Shown here: piece after piece, positions 17,120 through 23,590 of the stretch
Numbering within the stretch: position 1 is the stretch's first letter
Layout: every line of letters starts with the position of its first letter
Assembly: GCF_017876575.1 (NCBI RefSeq)
Contig: NZ_JAGIOE010000001.1
Location: 4,382,443 to 4,446,442 of the forward strand
DNA length: 64,000 nucleotides
Direction: 5' to 3'
DNA from: Paeniglutamicibacter psychrophenolicus
Lineage (GTDB): Bacteria > Actinomycetota > Actinomycetes > Actinomycetales > Micrococcaceae
The notes under the pieces: generated by a model
Seen by the model: only the letters and a program-made list of their open reading frames with translations
Database searches by the model: none
Told to the model about the DNA's origin: nothing
Made by a program: the position numbers and the translations under genes

Positions 17120-18361
17120 TCACGACTGCGAAGAATGCACGACTGTCGTACTTCCCACCTCGGAGCGGATGACGCAATACTCGGTGGCGTCCAATGCTTG
17201 GTCCAGTACCTGATGGAGATATGGGAATCCAGCATTTGGAGACGTAAATCCCGTGATGGCGATTCGCAGCTGAGTCCCGACATCGCTGAGTTTCATGCCC
17301 GCTGTACCCCTTGCCCTGACTCTGTGGCCGAGGGTACCAGTCGTGAACTCTTTGCGGACCGCTTCCAGAAAGAATCTTGGAGTGGGTACCAGCGCTGGTT
17401 CGGTCGTGGTCGGCGTTGGAATCCTCGCTGAGCTGGGCAATACGTCTGACGGTCCAGGCGTTTGAGCTGCAACGGGCTTGATGACTCCCAGCGCACAGTA
17501 AGTGTTCAAGAAATCGCTCAAGGTCTTGGAACCGCAAGCCTTGTAGCTGAGCTGCGGATACTCGCTGCGCAGTTTGCTGCCCAAGGCCGCGGCATTGACC
17601 CTATGTGCAACTACGAGTTCAGGGGTTTGCTTGATGATTGCCAGAATCGCTCTGCGCAATTCTGATACGGCATCGATCTTCGTCTGTTGCACTGTGGAAG
17701 CCGGCTGAGCGTTCTTTTCATTTGGTTTTGACGCGCACTGCTTCTGCTTCGCAGTTTCGGCAATGTTCGAATGTTCTTTGGCTGACGGAGTGTTTACTGG
17801 TGGGTCCTCATTCATTGGCTGCCGTGGGTCCGTCATTGACTCCTGCGACATCTGTATCTGGTGGTATTCATCGGCGACCGATCTAAGCAGCGCGTTGACT
17901 CCACCGGATCTCGGGGCATTTGTTGACACCACGATCACATACTTGTTCATGGCATGTAGCCGCCGGACAAGAGGCACAAACCCGCCATCCCCGGTGGCGA
18001 TCACGAACACATCTATCCATGGCGATTCATAGGCCACCGAGAGGACATCGACGCACAATTCGATGTCAGCAGCGTTTTTGATGTTCTTGTCGAATGAGAA
18101 AATCTGTACCGGTTCGACGCCATGCTCGAGTATCTCGCGTTGAAAGCCTGCCATCACAGGTCGCCCCCAATGCGCATAGGCTCGAACCATCGCTGAGCAT
18201 GAGCCCATTCCGGATTCCCAAACAAGGTTTTCGATGCCCCAGACGAGCTCACCCAATTTCAGCCCGCTGGCACCAGTTGGAGTTCCTCCAACAAGGTTTT
18301 CCATGTCAAGAAAAACAGCGACATTGCGACGCGTTCGTCTGGCATCCCCCATGCCCAGCAC
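17120..18361 (-). CDS. NYN-domain (PIN-like) protein with OST-HTH/LOTUS domain
   Basis: A 413-residue probable RNA-binding nuclease. Residues about 12-155 form a NYN/DUF88 (LabA-like) domain: NVAVFLDMENLVGG at the start, the acidic DIELCVDVLSVAYE, and the ATGDGGFVPLVRRL motif corresponding to the S/TGDxDF metal-site motif, here with Gly in place of the second Asp. A charged linker follows. Residues about 230-300 (SELRRAILAIIKQ ... CGSKTLSDFLNTY) look like an OST-HTH/LOTUS RNA-binding domain. The C-terminal 80 residues may be a second winged helix. Its base composition is less GC-rich than the genes to its left, and it marks the left edge of the accessory region. Confidence 0.75.
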   Translation of the reverse strand: MLGMGDARRTRRNVAVFLDMENLVGGTPTGASGLKLGELVWGIENLVWESGMGSCSAMVRAYAHWGRPVMAGFQREILEHGVEPVQIFSFDKNIKNAADIELCVDVLSVAYESPWIDVFVIATGDGGFVPLVRRLHAMNKYVIVVSTNAPRSGGVNALLRSVADEYHQIQMSQESMTDPRQPMNEDPPVNTPSAKEHSNIAETAKQKQCASKPNEKNAQPASTVQQTKIDAVSELRRAILAIIKQTPELVVAHRVNAAALGSKLRSEYPQLSYKACGSKTLSDFLNTYCALGVIKPVAAQTPGPSDVLPSSARIPTPTTTEPALVPTPRFFLEAVRKEFTTGTLGHRVRARGTAGMKLSDVGTQLRIAITGFTSPNAGFPYLHQVLDQALDATEYCVIRSEVGSTTVVHSSQS

Positions 18362-18713: not shown

Positions 18714-18804
18714 CAAGTCAGGGTACCTTTACCTTAAAGCGAAGCGCCACCGTGCGATGGTCAGTGAGTACCGATCAAAGAACTCACAAAGGACACACCA
18801 CACG

Positions 18805-19324
18805 ATGGCACCAGGCCAGTCTGCCCTGCTTGACCTCCTGCACCAACTCCGGGACACCGACGTGTCGGACCGGATCCGCACAGCGACCGAAACCCCCTGC
18901 CAGCAGCTCATCGACGCCGAGGCCACCGCGTTCATCGGCGCCGAGGCCACCGCGTTCATCGGCGCCGAGCCGTTCCAGCGTTCCGGGGACCGCACCGCCC
19001 AGCGCAACGGCACCCGCCCCAGGACGCTGAGCACCACCGCCGGGGACCTGAACCTGAAGATCCCCAAGCTGCGCACCGGCACGTTCTTCCCGTCCCTGCC
19101 GAGCGGCGCCGGCGGGTAGACTAGGCGCTCTACGCGGTGGTGATGGAGGCCCTACCCGCACGGGGTCTCCACCCGCAAGGTCGAGACCAAAGTCAAGGCC
19201 CTGGGCGCCGACACCGGCATCTCCAAGTCCGAGGTCTCGCGGATCTGCGAGGACCTGGACCACGAGGTTTCCGCGTTCCGCGCCCGGGACCTCTCGGCGA
19301 TGGACTACCCGTACGTGTTCCTGG
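18805..19324 (+). pseudogene. IS256-family transposase, 5' part (frameshifted)
   Basis: The ATG at 18805 begins MAPGQSALLDLLHQLRDTD, the usual actinobacterial IS256 start. LIDAEATAFIGAE, RTAQRNGTRPRTL and LKIPKLRTGTFFPSL are all typical. A 24-base tandem duplication repeats AEATAFIG. The frame then ends at a stop near 19117-19119, where intact homologues continue with an LERRRR segment. The sequence resumes in another frame with a VVMEA segment and then VKALGADTGISKSEVSRICEDLD before reaching YVFL, where the nested transposon begins. So the gene was already frameshifted or damaged besides being split. Confidence 0.88.
19320..19324 (+). repeat. Left target-site duplication CCTGG of the nested transposon
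   Basis: CCTGG here is repeated at 22831-22835. Joining the two flanks through one copy restores the IS256 reading ...TACGTGTTCCTGG|ACGCCACC (YVFLDAT), which independently fixes the insertion point. Confidence 0.9.
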
Positions 19325-19341
19325 TGTTGAGCGCCGCGTTA

Positions 19342-19376
19342 TTTGACGATGAAGCCGCCCCCGGGTTTGACGATGA
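19342..19376 (+). repeat. Left-end internal repeats (probable transposase-binding sites)
   Basis: TTTGACGATGA occurs at 19342-19352 and 19366-19376, spaced 24 bases. Related TGACGA motifs occur in the opposite sense near the right end (TCGTCA at 22714-22719 and 22783-22788). The second left site and the outermost right site lie 43 and 42 bases from their ends. Confidence 0.65.
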
Positions 19377-19388
19377 TCCGGTGATTGA

Positions 19389-19421
19389 AACGCCCCGCCA
19401 GGATGATCCCGGCGGGGCGTT
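19389..19421 (-). terminator. Terminator after the ATPase gene of the transposon
   Basis: An 11-base perfect stem (19389-19399 with 19411-19421, AACGCCCCGCC) lies 44 bases beyond the ATPase stop, close to the element's left end. It would stop transcripts leaving the three-gene operon. Confidence 0.65.
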
Positions 19422-19464
19422 CATGGTCATGGCGACGGCGTGATCCTCAGCAGTGCCGGACGGG

Positions 19465-20280
19465 TTATTCGCTGAATTCACTCACCGCCGACTGCGCCGC
19501 GGACTGATCTACGATCGCGTTTTGTGCCGCACGGGTCGCCATCAACGCGGCCAGCGCTAAATTGTTCACGGTCCGCGGATAGCCACGTGATGCTTGATGG
19601 ATGACGGTGACGGCGTCCTCGGAAAACAACGGATCGGTGCGACCGGCGAATCCCAGATGCCCCTTGATGTAATCGGCAGTGTCCTCCATATTCATTGGAT
19701 TGATCGTGTATCGGGTCCCGATACGTTGATCCAGGGCAGCGAGCACCGCCAGCTTCAACCGCCTGCGCAGCGTGGGTTGCCCGATGAGCAACAACGCGAA
19801 ATGCGACTCCGTATCAAGGTTCACGTTGCTAAGCATCCTGAGCGCTTCGAGGTCCTCATTGGAAAGCAGATGCGCCTCATCAACGACGATCACCGGCAGG
19901 CGGGAACGCTCATCAAGTTCTCCGGCGAGCAGGGACGCTGCCTGGGCGGCCAACGCCCCGGAGAAGAACGAGGGCGTGGCACCCAGGGCGGTGACGATCG
20001 CCGAACGGATCCCGCGAATGCCGATCGTTGGATCAGGAATATAGATGATCTGGTGGCGTGAGGGTTCCAACTGGGCCAGGGCCGCGCGGGCCGCCACCGT
20101 CTTCCCGGCACCGACTTCCCCGGCGATCACTCCCATGCGGCGTTCCTGGATGCACCAACGGATACGGGCCACCGCTTCGCGGTGCCCGGGATGCTGGGTC
20201 AGCGACGCCGGCGGGATGTCCCGACCAAAAGGCAGGCGGGTGAACCCAAAGTGGGTTTGCAGGGTGGAAATCGAACTCAT
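19465..20280 (-). CDS. TniB/ExeA-like AAA+ ATPase of the transposon
   Basis: Transposition regulator that in Mu, Tn7 and Tn5053 relatives (MuB, TnsC, TniB) binds target DNA and activates the DDE transposase. The 271-residue protein has Walker A GEVGAGKT at about residue 57 and Walker B PVIVVDEAHLL at about residue 130. A sensor-like ALLLIGQPTLRRRL follows, and then a typical ExeA-like C-terminal helical region (GYPRTVNNLALAALMAT). The ATG overlaps the transposase stop (ATGA), so the two are translationally coupled. Confidence 0.87.
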   Translation of the reverse strand: MSSISTLQTHFGFTRLPFGRDIPPASLTQHPGHREAVARIRWCIQERRMGVIAGEVGAGKTVAARAALAQLEPSRHQIIYIPDPTIGIRGIRSAIVTALGATPSFFSGALAAQAASLLAGELDERSRLPVIVVDEAHLLSNEDLEALRMLSNVNLDTESHFALLLIGQPTLRRRLKLAVLAALDQRIGTRYTINPMNMEDTADYIKGHLGFAGRTDPLFSEDAVTVIHQASRGYPRTVNNLALAALMATRAAQNAIVDQSAAQSAVSEFSE

Positions 20281-21875
20281 GGCTGGTCCTCTGTTTCCGG
20301 TGTCGTTTCGGGGATTTCCGGGGTGCTGCCCGGAGTCGGGTTCTGGGTGTCTGGGGTGGGGGTGTCGGCGAAGCTGATGGGTGCGCCCGTGAGCGATTCG
20401 AGGTGCCTGGTGGAGACCAAATCCAGGTAGTTGATGCCGGTGGTGATCAACGTGGCCGGGTCCTGATCTTTCACGGCGTTCAAGACCTTGGCGTGCACGT
20501 GACGCCCGATATCCAACGCCTTGGCGGTGCCGGCGGGTAGGCCCTGGTGATTGTTCACGGCGATGTCCCCGTCCAGGTCGAAGGGGTCATAGACCAGCTC
20601 GACCTTGGTGCCGGCCAGCAGCGGATCGACCTCGTAGGTGTTTGAATGCAAGGACACCGTCCCGGTCTTGGTGACCGTGCGGGTATCTGACCAGAGGAAT
20701 GCCGCCCGGATCTCCTCCAGGGACTTGCGGACCGGTTCCCGGTGCTCCCAGGACGCATCCCAGCGGGCCAAGGGTGTTTGCCCGGTGGTGGTGTGTTGCT
20801 GGTGGTGATAGACCATGTTCACCCACGCGGTGAACAGCGTGTTCAGTTCCTCCAAGGAACTGATTTGGGAGCCAGTGGCCGGGTCGGTGCCCGGAAGCAT
20901 GGGCGTGTCGGTGACGGTGATTTCCCCCAGGAACTGACTGGTGACCGTGTTGAAGATGCGCTCAATTTTTCCCCTTCCCTGGGGCCGGTACGGGGCGGAG
21001 TGAATCAGGCGGATGCCGAGTTTCGCGCAGGTCCGCTCCAAAGACTTGTCGATCATTGCGGCCCCGTTGTCGAGGTAGCAATTTTTGGGTATGCCGTAGG
21101 TCTCGAAGGCCGGGCGCAGGACCGCGCTCAGCCTGATGGCATCCTCGGCATAGGCCCAACGCGCGGCGGTGATCATCCGGGAATGATCATCCAGGAACGC
21201 GAACAAATACGTTTTCCGCCCATTGATCTTCGGCCCGTGCAGGGCATCTCCCACCCAGATTTCGTTGGAATGCTCCGCTTCAAAGCGGCCGGTGGCCACC
21301 GGCCGAACACCGGTGGAAATGTTCCTGGACCGAAAGTGGCGCAGCAACGTCGTCTCCGAGGGTGCCTGGCCCATGGTTTCGGTGATGATTCGTTTGACTT
21401 GGGCGGCGGTGCGGTTCGGTTTCTCGCGTTTGAGGGATTCGGCCAGCGCCAGCACCGTCGAATCGGTGACCGGGGTGCTGGCTCGTTCATCGGGTTTCAG
21501 CCCGTCGAAGCCGCGTAGTTGCCAGGCCTTGACCCAGCGGTCCAGGGTTTCGCGGGAGTAGCGGCGGGTGCCGCCGAAAGGCCACGGATGATCCAAGTCC
21601 GCCAGGGCGCGGACCATGGGCCCGCGTTGGCGGGTGCTCAGCGACGGATCTGCCGCACCGCGGATGAGTTGGTATCTGAAGAGGGCGATCTTCTCTCGGT
21701 GTTCCTTGCGCATCAACGGGGTGCCGGCTCGTGGGGCGGGGTTGGTCGGCACCGGGGAAACCCTCGGGCCTGCCTCCGGCAGGGAATGGTCCTCGAAAGT
21801 CGGAACCAGCGCGACCGGTGGTGTTGGCGGGGCAGGGTCGGGCTCGTGGGGCAGGTGGGCTGAGGCACTACTCAT
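20277..21875 (-). CDS. DDE (rve-type) transposase, Mu/TniA-like
   Basis: Catalytic transposase of the nested element, 532 residues. A proline-rich N-terminus precedes an HTH region (about 90-190, with ETLDRWVKAWQLRGFDGLKP). The rve integrase core follows: WVGDALHGP carries the first Asp, LDNGAAMIDKS the second, and PQGRGKIERIFNTV the catalytic Glu, within the SAPYRPQGRGKIER signature. A Mu-C-like beta domain follows (VSLHSNTYEVDPLLAGTKVELVYDPFD), ending in a Pro/Thr-rich tail. The start was set at the ATG 21873-21875, seven bases after GGAAGG, because the open frame up to 22064 overlaps the upstream gene. Confidence 0.9.
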   Translation of the reverse strand: MSSASAHLPHEPDPAPPTPPVALVPTFEDHSLPEAGPRVSPVPTNPAPRAGTPLMRKEHREKIALFRYQLIRGAADPSLSTRQRGPMVRALADLDHPWPFGGTRRYSRETLDRWVKAWQLRGFDGLKPDERASTPVTDSTVLALAESLKREKPNRTAAQVKRIITETMGQAPSETTLLRHFRSRNISTGVRPVATGRFEAEHSNEIWVGDALHGPKINGRKTYLFAFLDDHSRMITAARWAYAEDAIRLSAVLRPAFETYGIPKNCYLDNGAAMIDKSLERTCAKLGIRLIHSAPYRPQGRGKIERIFNTVTSQFLGEITVTDTPMLPGTDPATGSQISSLEELNTLFTAWVNMVYHHQQHTTTGQTPLARWDASWEHREPVRKSLEEIRAAFLWSDTRTVTKTGTVSLHSNTYEVDPLLAGTKVELVYDPFDLDGDIAVNNHQGLPAGTAKALDIGRHVHAKVLNAVKDQDPATLITTGINYLDLVSTRHLESLTGAPISFADTPTPDTQNPTPGSTPEIPETTPETEDQP

Positions 21876-21961
21876 CGAAAAATCCTTCCGGCGGGGTGAA
21901 ACATGGACCCGTGCCGCCGCCGGGAACCCGGAAACGACACGTATTGCCCACCTTCGCCCAG

Positions 21962-22609
21962 TTAGACTTCCGGCGGCAGGGCGGGTTGGTGTTGCACCCG
22001 ATCGGGCCATCCCACGGTGCTGAAGAGCCACGGGCCATGGGCCATGAGTGCGCCGTGGTGCCACGTCACGTTGAGAACGGCGCCCGGCGCCCGGAGTTGG
22101 TGCACGTGGGCCAGGACCCGGGCGTGGGCCATCAGCATCCCCAACGCATTGGCGCCGACCGTATCCGCCGGGGCCGGCCAGAATCCCAGGGCCTCGGCGG
22201 TGGCCCGATGCACGCGGGCGGCGAATGCCGACAACATGTCCGTGGCCTTGGCTTTCACGACGCGTAACCAGTCCCTGACGGTGGTGGCCGGGCGATCCAG
22301 GTTCGCGGCGATCTTCTGGAACCCGAGCCCCGCAGCAATGTTCAGTTCCACGGCATGGGCGATCACGGCCGCCTCATCGGCCCGGCGGGCAGCAAACAGC
22401 GCGGGCAACAGGATGTGGGTGGTGGCGCACTCGTTGCAACGTCCCCGGCGCGGGGTGAAGCGTTGGTTTTTTACCGGGGTTCCGCACCGGATGGTTCGTT
22501 GGGTCCCGAAGCCCCACGGTTTCAGGACTCCGGGGCATAGGGGGCAGATAAGTTCACGGCCCAGGAGGCTGGATTCGACAGCGGTGGGATCGTGGCTTAC
22601 GGTGAGCAC
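21962..22609 (-). CDS. Zinc-ribbon HTH protein of the transposon (DUF6431-like)
   Basis: First gene of the transposon operon, 215 residues from a GTG start. The N-terminus holds paired cysteines, CPLC at about residue 22 and CNEC near 58 with further Cys between, suggesting a zinc ribbon. It is followed by an HTH (LGFQKIAANLDRPATTVRDWLR) at about residues 97-118. The rest is helical with no known catalytic motif. I take it to belong to the DUF6431 family, seen beside DDE transposases in actinobacteria. Its role (end recognition, target choice or repression) is unknown. An 86-base gap separates it from the transposase gene. Confidence 0.72.
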   Translation of the reverse strand: MLTVSHDPTAVESSLLGRELICPLCPGVLKPWGFGTQRTIRCGTPVKNQRFTPRRGRCNECATTHILLPALFAARRADEAAVIAHAVELNIAAGLGFQKIAANLDRPATTVRDWLRVVKAKATDMLSAFAARVHRATAEALGFWPAPADTVGANALGMLMAHARVLAHVHQLRAPGAVLNVTWHHGALMAHGPWLFSTVGWPDRVQHQPALPPEV

Positions 22610-22711
22610 AGCGCGACTCGTTTCGCGTTAGAGCGACCTGGTGCGGCCTTAGAAACTGGCACCGGGTCGTTCGTCTTTAAGATCCGGATCAAAAATCCGG
22701 GATCAAGGGTC

Positions 22712-22830
22712 TGTCGTCAGCCTGACGCCGCCAATGAAGAACGTCAAGAGCCGTGCAGGGAATTCCGGTGCGGGAAGCCTCGTCGTCAGGCACCGTGACT
22801 ACCCACGGTCATCCACTGCGACGCGTAACA
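22712..22830 (-). repeat. Right transposon end with internal TGACGA sites
   Basis: The terminal AACA at 22827-22830 mirrors the left TGTT. TCGTCA at 22783-22788 and at 22714-22719 are inverted copies of the left-end TGACGA sites. Confidence 0.62.
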
Positions 22831-22835
22831 CCTGG
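22831..22835 (+). repeat. Right target-site duplication CCTGG of the nested transposon
   Basis: Second copy of the CCTGG found at 19320-19324, directly after the element's terminal AACA. Confidence 0.9.
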
Positions 22836-23590
22836 ACGCCACCTACGTCCAAGGCGCGGGTGAACCGCCGCGTGGTTTCCCAGGCGATCGTGGTCGCCTT
22901 CGGGGTGGCCGCCGACGGGCGGCGGGAGGTGCTGGGATTCGACGTCGGGGACTTACGAGTTCGAGGCCTTCTGGACCGCGTTCCTGCGCTCCCTCAAAGC
23001 CCGCGGGCTCGGCGGGGTGAAGCTGGTGATCACCGATGCCCACACGGGCCTGAAAAAGGCCATTGCCACCGCGTTCCAGGGCGCCGCGTGGCAGCGCTGC
23101 CGGGTGCATTTCATGCGCAACGTGCTCGCCAACGTGCCCAAGGGCTCCGGAGGAAATGGTCGCCTCCATCATCCGCACCGCCTTCACCCTGCCCACCGCG
23201 CAGGAGGTCAATGAACAGTACTCGGAGGTCATCAAGATGCTCGGCTCCTCGCATCCCAAGGTCGTGGCGATGCTCCGGGATGCCCGCGAGGACGTGCTGG
23301 CCTTCGCCGGCTTCCCTCCGCGTCATTGGCGCAAGATCTGGTCCACGAATCCCATGGAGCGGGTCAACAAGAAGATCAAGTGGCGGACCAATGTCGTGGG
23401 TGTTTTCCCGAATCCCGAGGCCCTGCTGCGGCTGGCCGGCGCGGTCCTGGTGGAGCAGCATGACGAGTGGGAGGCCGGGGATCGGCGCTACCTTTCGGAG
23501 GGCTCCATGGCCGAGCTGATGGCCGTGGACCAGCAGGTCAGCGACTTGATTGGGGAAAAGATTTTGCTTCCCGAGCTCACGGCTGCATAA
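22831..23590 (+). pseudogene. IS256-family transposase, 3' part (frameshifted)
   Basis: Continuation of the transposase split at 19324. Blocks include LDATYV, RVNRRVVSQAIVVAFGVAADGRREVLGFDVGD, FWTAFLRSLKARGLGGVKLVITDAHTGLKKAI and, near the end, WSTNPMERVNKK. They lie in different frames: an extra base near 22851, a change near 22948 and another near 23150 break the reading. Only the last block, from about 23154 to the stop at 23590, is uninterrupted. The copy cannot make a working transposase even without the insertion. Confidence 0.88.

Follow-up and report, generated by a model that had tools for sequence, protein, structure and literature searches.

How does a transposon move that carries only a transposase, an ATPase and one further DNA-binding protein, and what does that third protein contribute? 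The question is raised by a 3.5-kb element of Paeniglutamicibacter psychrophenolicus, which lies in a 64,000-nucleotide stretch of contig NZ_JAGIOE010000001.1 (the window) and encodes a DDE transposase, an AAA+ ATPase and a zinc-ribbon/helix-turn-helix (HTH) protein resembling the domain DUF6431 (Table 1). An earlier description made from the letters without database searches (the sequence-only reading) had presented it as a complete, cargo-free Mu/Tn7-like transposon with defined ends. Our comparisons indicate that it is probably an insertion-sequence-like transposon, autonomous and free of cargo, from a separate family with a wide distribution, in which the third protein would be a core DNA-binding part. 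This family is apparently unnamed, and the element is predicted to work in the manner of IS21 and Mu, while lacking at least one tested defining feature of each of the Tn7-like, IS21 and IS481 groups.

Limits, copies and gene order

The element starts TGTTGAGCG and finishes GCGTAACA, termini of the TGTT...AACA type, and is flanked on both sides by CCTGG. These limits, already proposed in the sequence-only reading, are borne out by a second copy at C1:834639-838122 of this genome, which is 79% identical over its full length, has identical terminal bases and is flanked on both sides by a duplication of its own, CGTCC. Because independent copies share their limits and carry their own duplications, chance is excluded as the source of the limits. 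Among the 16 full copies of the genus with both flanks, for which lengths of 4 to 9 bp were tried, the duplication is perfect in every case, at 5 bp in 12 and 6 bp in 4; the proposed target duplication thus stands, but not its fixed length of 5 bp. Outside the three minus-strand open frames, the end DNA amounts to just 140 bp and 221 bp; cargo would not fit, and the description as a complete three-gene unit holds.

The transposase is present in 4 of 15 genomes of the genus (expectation value, E, 1e-30) and in 12 of 245 genomes of the bacterial family (E 1e-80), with the genus copies falling into two subtypes, one of about 3,450-3,506 bp and one of 3,382 bp; across the element family, copies with clear ends measure about 3.1-4.0 kb. 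One genome of the genus (G013) has three copies without a single difference over 3,460 bp, and another (G012) has four over 3,382 bp. These identical multi-copy relatives show recent activity of the element family. The transposase gene of a subtype-B copy in G013 is split by a nested 2.57-kb insertion (L036 5942-8514).

A contig scan with nine diverse transposases gave 199 relatives, the best 80 of which were kept as loci, and in 66 of these 80 the genes follow one another on one strand in the strict order third-gene protein, transposase, ATPase. The 14 exceptions comprise loci incomplete at contig ends (L056, L058, L117), loci with a split transposase (L077, L078) or an ATPase that is displaced or was not found (L076, L084), five mycobacterial loci that lack the upstream first gene and have a short ATPase (L107, L108, L111, L112, L113), and two whose contig begins just ahead of the transposase (L114, L132). 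Apart from these last two, cut at the contig start, no intact transposase-plus-ATPase unit without the third gene occurs among the 80 loci. Gene order is also identical in all nine plasmid loci examined from Bacillota and Pseudomonadota, four of which (L052, L215, L216, L217) have inverted repeats and duplications of 5-7 bp. Elsewhere, L053 has inverted repeats with a 4-bp duplication only, L054 and L212 have inverted repeats without duplication, L214 has a doubtful pair of ends and L213 none. The element family spans at least three phyla. Differing limits, missing duplications and genes never found together, which the sequence-only reading had named as observations that would speak against it, were looked for, and what was seen instead is the duplications and gene order just described.

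Annotations in the plasmid records examined are generic (DDE-type integrase, IS481 family transposase, AAA family ATPase, DUF6431 or hypothetical protein). For 30 of the 80 loci the contig measures 3.0-3.6 kb, about the length of the element, which fits collapsed multi-copy repeats but is suggestive only, contigs below 3 kb lying outside the data set. Extra genes accompany some copies: a small gene between transposase and ATPase in two from Streptomyces (L050 5358-5579, L211 6045-6323), and one of about 75-85 aa directly after the ATPase in Bacillota and Pseudomonadota relatives (L213 6128-6364, which is DUF5348; L215 6032-6289; L216 6118-6342; L217 6114-6350), a gene that the window element lacks. 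Mycobacterial plasmid copies are split or cut by other elements (L049 152-6240, with IS256 and an IS1380-like frame; L210 4995-7000, with Tn3 and an integrase).

The third protein and the element ends

The third protein of the window scores 24.1 bits against DUF6431, just below the Pfam cut-off of 26.6, and a search of the window's own genome with PF20020 (DUF6431) gave two matches, one per copy, at 26.5 and 26.2 bits against the same cut-off. Among 60 third-gene homologues, DUF6431 is found in 59 and HTH_23 in 57 (E up to 0.1). Its AlphaFold2 model, with a predicted local distance difference test (pLDDT) score of 89.6, has no solved fold match in the PDB at E <=0.001 (Foldseek), while its HTH locally resembles sigma region 4 (E 0.8). 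In the literature searched, with subscription titles mostly outside its reach, no description of a DUF6431-bearing transposon family was found, and DUF6431 occurs there in a single paper, as a table entry. The protein is present in 19 of 396 sampled actinobacterial genomes (E 1e-6), and of 21 strong hits in this sample (E below 1e-15), 17 adjoin the transposase and one lies at a contig edge. Over 57 loci, its divergence is correlated with that of the transposase (Mantel r 0.93) and of the ATPase (r 0.89; 0 of 999 permutations), and, judged from its substitution pattern, it is under purifying selection. A cargo role for the third gene was rejected on its conserved position, its co-divergence with transposase and ATPase, and this selection.

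The ends were compared with a leave-one-out position weight matrix (PWM) in 27 elements, all from actinobacterial records except L097, whose record is titled as a deltaproteobacterial metagenome-assembled genome (MAG), and with L052 left out. At the downstream end, a terminal transposase-type site and a second one 24 bp further in are found in 27 of 27 elements; at the upstream end, the terminal site is likewise found in all 27 and the second in 26, at one of two spacings. Further inside lies a palindrome, CGTCANNNTGACG (at most one mismatch), whose distance from the upstream end is 92-93 or 103-105 bp in 24 of the 27 elements; in seven (L068, L069, L073, L078, L097, L103, L119) a weaker copy occurs at 100-101 or 121 bp, counted from the downstream end. 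For a window of that size the expectation is 0.004 per element, or about 0.1 per end over the set, and the interiors of the elements, 90.6 kb in all, contain 7 hits. Since the terminal-site matrix does not score at the upstream palindrome (1 hit in 27 for the region 75-120 bp from that end), the palindrome and the terminal site are of different kinds, and the occurrence of the palindrome at both ends makes it a candidate binding site. Between the two upstream distances (L028 and L067-L070 compared with the other elements) there is a step of about 11 bp, the length of one helical turn; this may reflect a phase relation to the end sites, or no more than a single ancient indel.

These sites bear on what the third protein does. 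The recurrence of the palindrome at the other end, and the absence from the 80 loci of any intact transposase-plus-ATPase unit without the gene, speak for the third protein as a needed part. Our tentative proposal, for which we would claim a little less than an even chance, is that the DUF6431-like protein serves in transposition as a subunit in place of TniQ and forms a new, unrelated class of adaptor, linking the ends or the target DNA to the MuB/TnsC-class ATPase, perhaps bound to the palindrome, in pan-phylum minimal transposons. It is also quite possible, though we lean away from it, that the protein is a transcription regulator only, which holds transposition down by binding the palindrome at the operon promoter, with transposase and ATPase sufficing as in IS21. 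In favour of this role, the upstream palindrome overlaps the -10 of a promoter-like sequence (TTGACG-17-CAGGCT, with the -35 at 22742-22747), read by eye; a consensus promoter scan of the element reported no promoter. The position of the third gene, first in the operon and adjoining the upstream end, its zinc-ribbon/HTH make-up with the local likeness to sigma region 4, and the presence of the palindrome within 150 bp ahead of it in 40 of 55 loci would all suit a regulator, as would the overlap of the transposase stop with the ATPase start in 57 of 62 loci, which looks as if those two genes formed a unit of their own. However, the downstream copies of the palindrome stand where the operon has no promoter, no intact unit among the 80 loci lacks the third gene apart from the two cut at a contig start, and the transposase end sites have as their core TGACG, the half-site of the palindrome, so that the transposase itself may bind the palindrome.

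Just inside the downstream end, a conserved hairpin has compensatory changes in 9 of its 12 pairs across 25 elements, with 93% of cells paired and a covariation score that 0 of 500 shuffles attained. It is possibly the operon's terminator; a terminator scan, which requires a T run, did not list it.

Relation to known transposons

The catalytic residues of the transposase (D210, D269 and E305) are invariant across nine diverse relatives; its start was taken as the first ATG, and an alternative GTG start at 22064 is possible. In hhalign comparisons, its profile matches that of four TniA proteins at 99.1% probability (E 7.7e-19), two IS481-type proteins at 99% and 97%, the phage B3 transposase at 97%, IstA at 86% and MuA at 6%, and it matches PHROG 310 at E 4.8e-54. 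The transposase is related to those of IS481, the 99% partner coming from the window's own genome, the relative from Geobacillus being annotated 'IS481 family transposase', and the NCBIfam IS481 model giving 151.7 bits. Yet this score lies below the cut-off of 224 bits, and in a 54-sequence tree, which took in 35 element-family members selected from those at hand, these 35 transposases form a single clade without IS481 sequences (ultrafast bootstrap 87); the sister group of the clade is uncertain because the deep branches are long. IS481 elements have a single transposase gene, whereas the three-gene unit with the additional ATPase and third gene is what most loci of this family contain (66 of 80). 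An IS481-family element with two extra genes is therefore unlikely, even though TGT/ACA ends are common to both, as given for IS481 in the accessible part of one source (PMC11406308).

The ATPase contains Pfam AAA_22 and matches PHROG 296 (E 3.1e-21), and its profile pairs with the phage B3 ATPase at 96%, MuB at 94%, TniB at 81% and one IstB at 1.2%. A Foldseek search with its AlphaFold model (pLDDT 84.5) returned ORC/Cdc6 folds (E 2.8e-7), which score slightly above TnsC (7m99, E 2.8e-6; template modelling score, TM, about 0.50). The MuB/TniB side of the ATPase first proposed as TniB/ExeA-like is thus borne out, and by these comparisons the protein belongs to the MuB/TnsC/phage-B3 class, not to IstB. 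The phage B3 ATPase is itself annotated as secretion-protein-A-like. An IstB-type helper was rejected on the 1.2% match and on 12 bits against the IS21_help_AAA model, whose cut-off is 200. Scores among known proteins served as yardsticks (TniB-MuB 93%, TniB-IstB 25%, B3-MuB 43%, TniB-B3 4%, TniA-MuA 1.2%), and since known relatives such as TniA and MuA reach only 1.2%, low single-sequence scores do not exclude kinship.

In its overall build, the element resembles IS21 (IstA/IstB), which is likewise cargo-free, with a DDE transposase, an AAA+ helper and two direct repeats per end. The repeats of IS21 lie about 23 bp apart, compared with 24 bp at the downstream end of the present family, and IS21 makes a 5-bp duplication without clear target specificity, according to the part of the source available (PMC10122671); in the portion available of a survey of Tn7 target selectors, none is reported for IS21 (PMC10293859). 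Of the IS21 traits tested, the two direct repeats per end are present, while the IstB-type helper is absent and the IstA family model gives 46.6 bits, below its cut-off of 160. The helper of IS21 is the DnaC-like IstB, unlike the MuB/TnsC-class ATPase found here, which is accompanied by a third gene. As to targets, the present family has no sequence common to its insertion sites, and its duplications measure 6 bp in 4 of the 16 genus copies. The phage B3/Mu systems provide the best ATPase match and a similar pair of DDE transposase and MuB-class ATPase, but the window element lacks phage genes and has exact ends 3.5 kb apart, and the third protein did not match the B3 transposase, the one B3 protein compared with it (0.09%).

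Likeness to Tn5053/Tn402 (TniA, TniB, TniQ, TniR) and other Tn7-like elements is again clear in the TnsB/TniA-type transposase, the TnsC/TniB-type ATPase, the TGT/ACA ends and the repeated end sites, while the window element has no detected TniQ, no room for a resolvase or TnsA, and no preferred site seen; no TnsA or resolvase domain occurs in its three proteins. The label Tn7-like is thus not upheld as membership. The absence of TniQ could be apparent if this were a true Tn7/Tn5053-type element whose TniQ had diverged past recognition into the DUF6431-like protein, and TniQ, too, combines a zinc finger with helical domains in the accessible text of the selector survey (PMC10293859), in addition to the TniA-type profile match, the fit of the ATPase model to TnsC structures, and the alike ends and duplication. 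We consider this improbable, as an hhalign comparison of 60 third-gene proteins with six TniQ proteins gave 5% over 21 columns, the Pfam families listed for the 60 third-gene members (25 of 28) do not include TniQ, the third-protein model lacks any PDB match at the threshold given above, and a search of the window's own genome with PF06527 at E 1e-10 found none. Tn5469 is a Tn7-like element already described that carries no cargo, has a single TniQ and apparently lacks target specificity (PMC11406308, in the part available); set against that description only, the difference lies in the third protein, which is TniQ there and DUF6431-like here. A dead remnant or chance arrangement of unrelated genes is hardly credible, for although the window genome holds only two, diverged copies, the three open frames, the catalytic residues, the perfect duplication, the recurrent three-gene unit (66 of 80 loci) and the identical multi-copy sets oppose it, and for the family it is refuted.

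Target sites, surroundings and proposed mechanism

Target sites were collected from the 16 genus copies and from 22 further loci (19 genome, 3 plasmid), giving 21 five-bp and 17 six-bp sites. The 22 come from a script that sought only 5- or 6-bp duplications in 86 loci, and illustrate ends and lengths without giving a rate or a free size distribution; of 29 end pairs, L101 was dropped as spurious (10 of 20 inverted-repeat matches), and L055, L057, L060, L061, L063 and L064 were duplicates of genus copies. No target sequence is shared among 37 aligned sites (21 of five bp and 16 of six bp), no column exceeding 0.7 bit, and the strongest columns (about 0.7 bit) amount to a mild G/C lean in G/C-rich genomes. 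Ten open stretches abut nine of the genus insertions, and four of them belong to different Pfam families (LysE, M23 peptidase, ABC transporter, DUF1801), with no Pfam family at E 1e-4 in the other six. Site-specific targeting was rejected on these observations. Because the target sites share no sequence and the neighbouring genes are unrelated, the element appears to be untargeted. With insertions that share no target sequence, it may or may not serve as the model for the evolution of targeting that the sequence-only reading saw in it. In G013, copies of one subtype are separated by about 110 kb or more, and are too few for target immunity to be judged.

The window copy sits in an IS256-type transposase gene. 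That removing the element would restore this gene, as had been claimed, is true of the reading across the junction, where the joined flanks are co-linear (FLD on one side and ATYV on the other, read by eye), but not of the gene, which is broken independently by stops and a frame change. An uninterrupted homologous site exists in another genome of the genus (G002; 86% identity over query 1-400). At window positions 17120-18361 there is a 413-aa frame with, by eye, an NYN/LabA-type look and a LOTUS-like tail. The genes directly adjoining the second copy (L004 7163-9400; G000 C1 ~838160-840400) have the look of what we take to be a Wadjet/Jet defence operon, with DUF3375- and DUF4194-like translations.

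Table 1. Features of the element and its insertion site, in window coordinates.
Feature	Coordinates	Strand	Remarks
Interrupted host, broken IS256-type transposase gene, left part	18757..19324	+	right part ~22831-23590
Target duplication CCTGG, left copy	19320..19324		read in sequence
Whole transposon, 3,506 bp	19325..22830	genes on -	same limits as second copy in genome
Downstream end, two tandem transposase-type sites (19330-19352, 19354-19376)	19330..19376	+	leave-one-out PWM
Conserved hairpin just inside downstream end	19390..19420	-	12 pairs, covariation
AAA+ ATPase, 271 aa, MuB/TnsC/phage-B3 class	19465..20280	-	start overlaps transposase stop
DDE transposase, 532 aa, rve + Mu-transpos_C	20277..21875	-	catalytic D210, D269, E305 (DD35E)
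Zinc-ribbon/HTH protein, 215 aa, DUF6431-like	21962..22609	-	conserved zinc ligands C22 C25 C58 C61 H65
Palindrome CGTCAGCCTGACG	22715..22727		104 bp from upstream end; overlaps -10 of promoter-like sequence
Upstream end, two transposase-type sites (~22803-22825; 22779-22801 by eye)	22779..22825	-	leave-one-out PWM
Target duplication CCTGG, right copy	22831..22835		read in sequence

Several observations weigh against an autonomous transposon with the third protein at its core. The window copy, which may be active as first suggested, has a single, diverged sibling in its genome. Three of the 21 strong third-gene hits (L204, L205 and L206, in two actinobacterial genomes) have no neighbouring transposase, and may be remnants or serve another use. 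Longer duplications also occur, 7 bp at L215 and 9 bp at L133. Among solved structures, the ATPase profile finds its best sequence match in MuB, but without significance (E 0.056), and single-sequence profile comparisons are weak yardsticks, as TniA-MuA at 1.2% and the element-family transposase with MuA at 6% illustrate. The third protein is the fastest-evolving of the three, with a ratio of nonsynonymous to synonymous substitution rates (dN/dS) of 0.27-0.54 (8 pairs), where the transposase has 0.12-0.20 and the ATPase 0.07-0.21; a regulator and a subunit are both compatible with this. Finally, replicative and copy-out movement cannot be told apart from sequence.

By analogy with Mu, Tn7 and IS21, the DDE protein would bind the two sites at each end, synapse the ends and nick the 3′ strands, while the MuB/TnsC-class ATPase would load on almost any DNA and offer it as target, with staggered joining then producing the 5-6 bp duplication. 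The intermediate would be completed by replication or host repair and, given that the element has neither TnsA nor a resolvase, any cointegrate would be resolved by host recombination. Elements without TnsA form cointegrates, which are resolved by a resolvase or by host recombination, according to the accessible parts of two sources (PMC11406308, PMC9527255). Our first guess for the third protein is that it acts in transposition, either at the ends, with the palindrome as candidate site, or as an adaptor of the ATPase; a close second guess makes it a regulator of the operon, acting on the palindrome that overlaps the promoter-like sequence.

Mu, Tn7, CRISPR-guided Tn7 and IS21, all DDE transposons guided by an ATPase, are central to understanding how targets are chosen, and the present family offers a compact, minimal system in which to ask what a third protein adds to a MuB/TnsC-type engine that seemingly needs no special target. 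The domain of unknown function DUF6431 is thereby placed in a definite setting, and the annotation of genes that now bear generic names would also benefit. If the DUF6431-like protein is indeed a transposition subunit, the family would represent a third way of running an ATPase-guided DDE transposase, beside those with no selector (IS21, Mu) and those with TniQ (Tn7-like elements).

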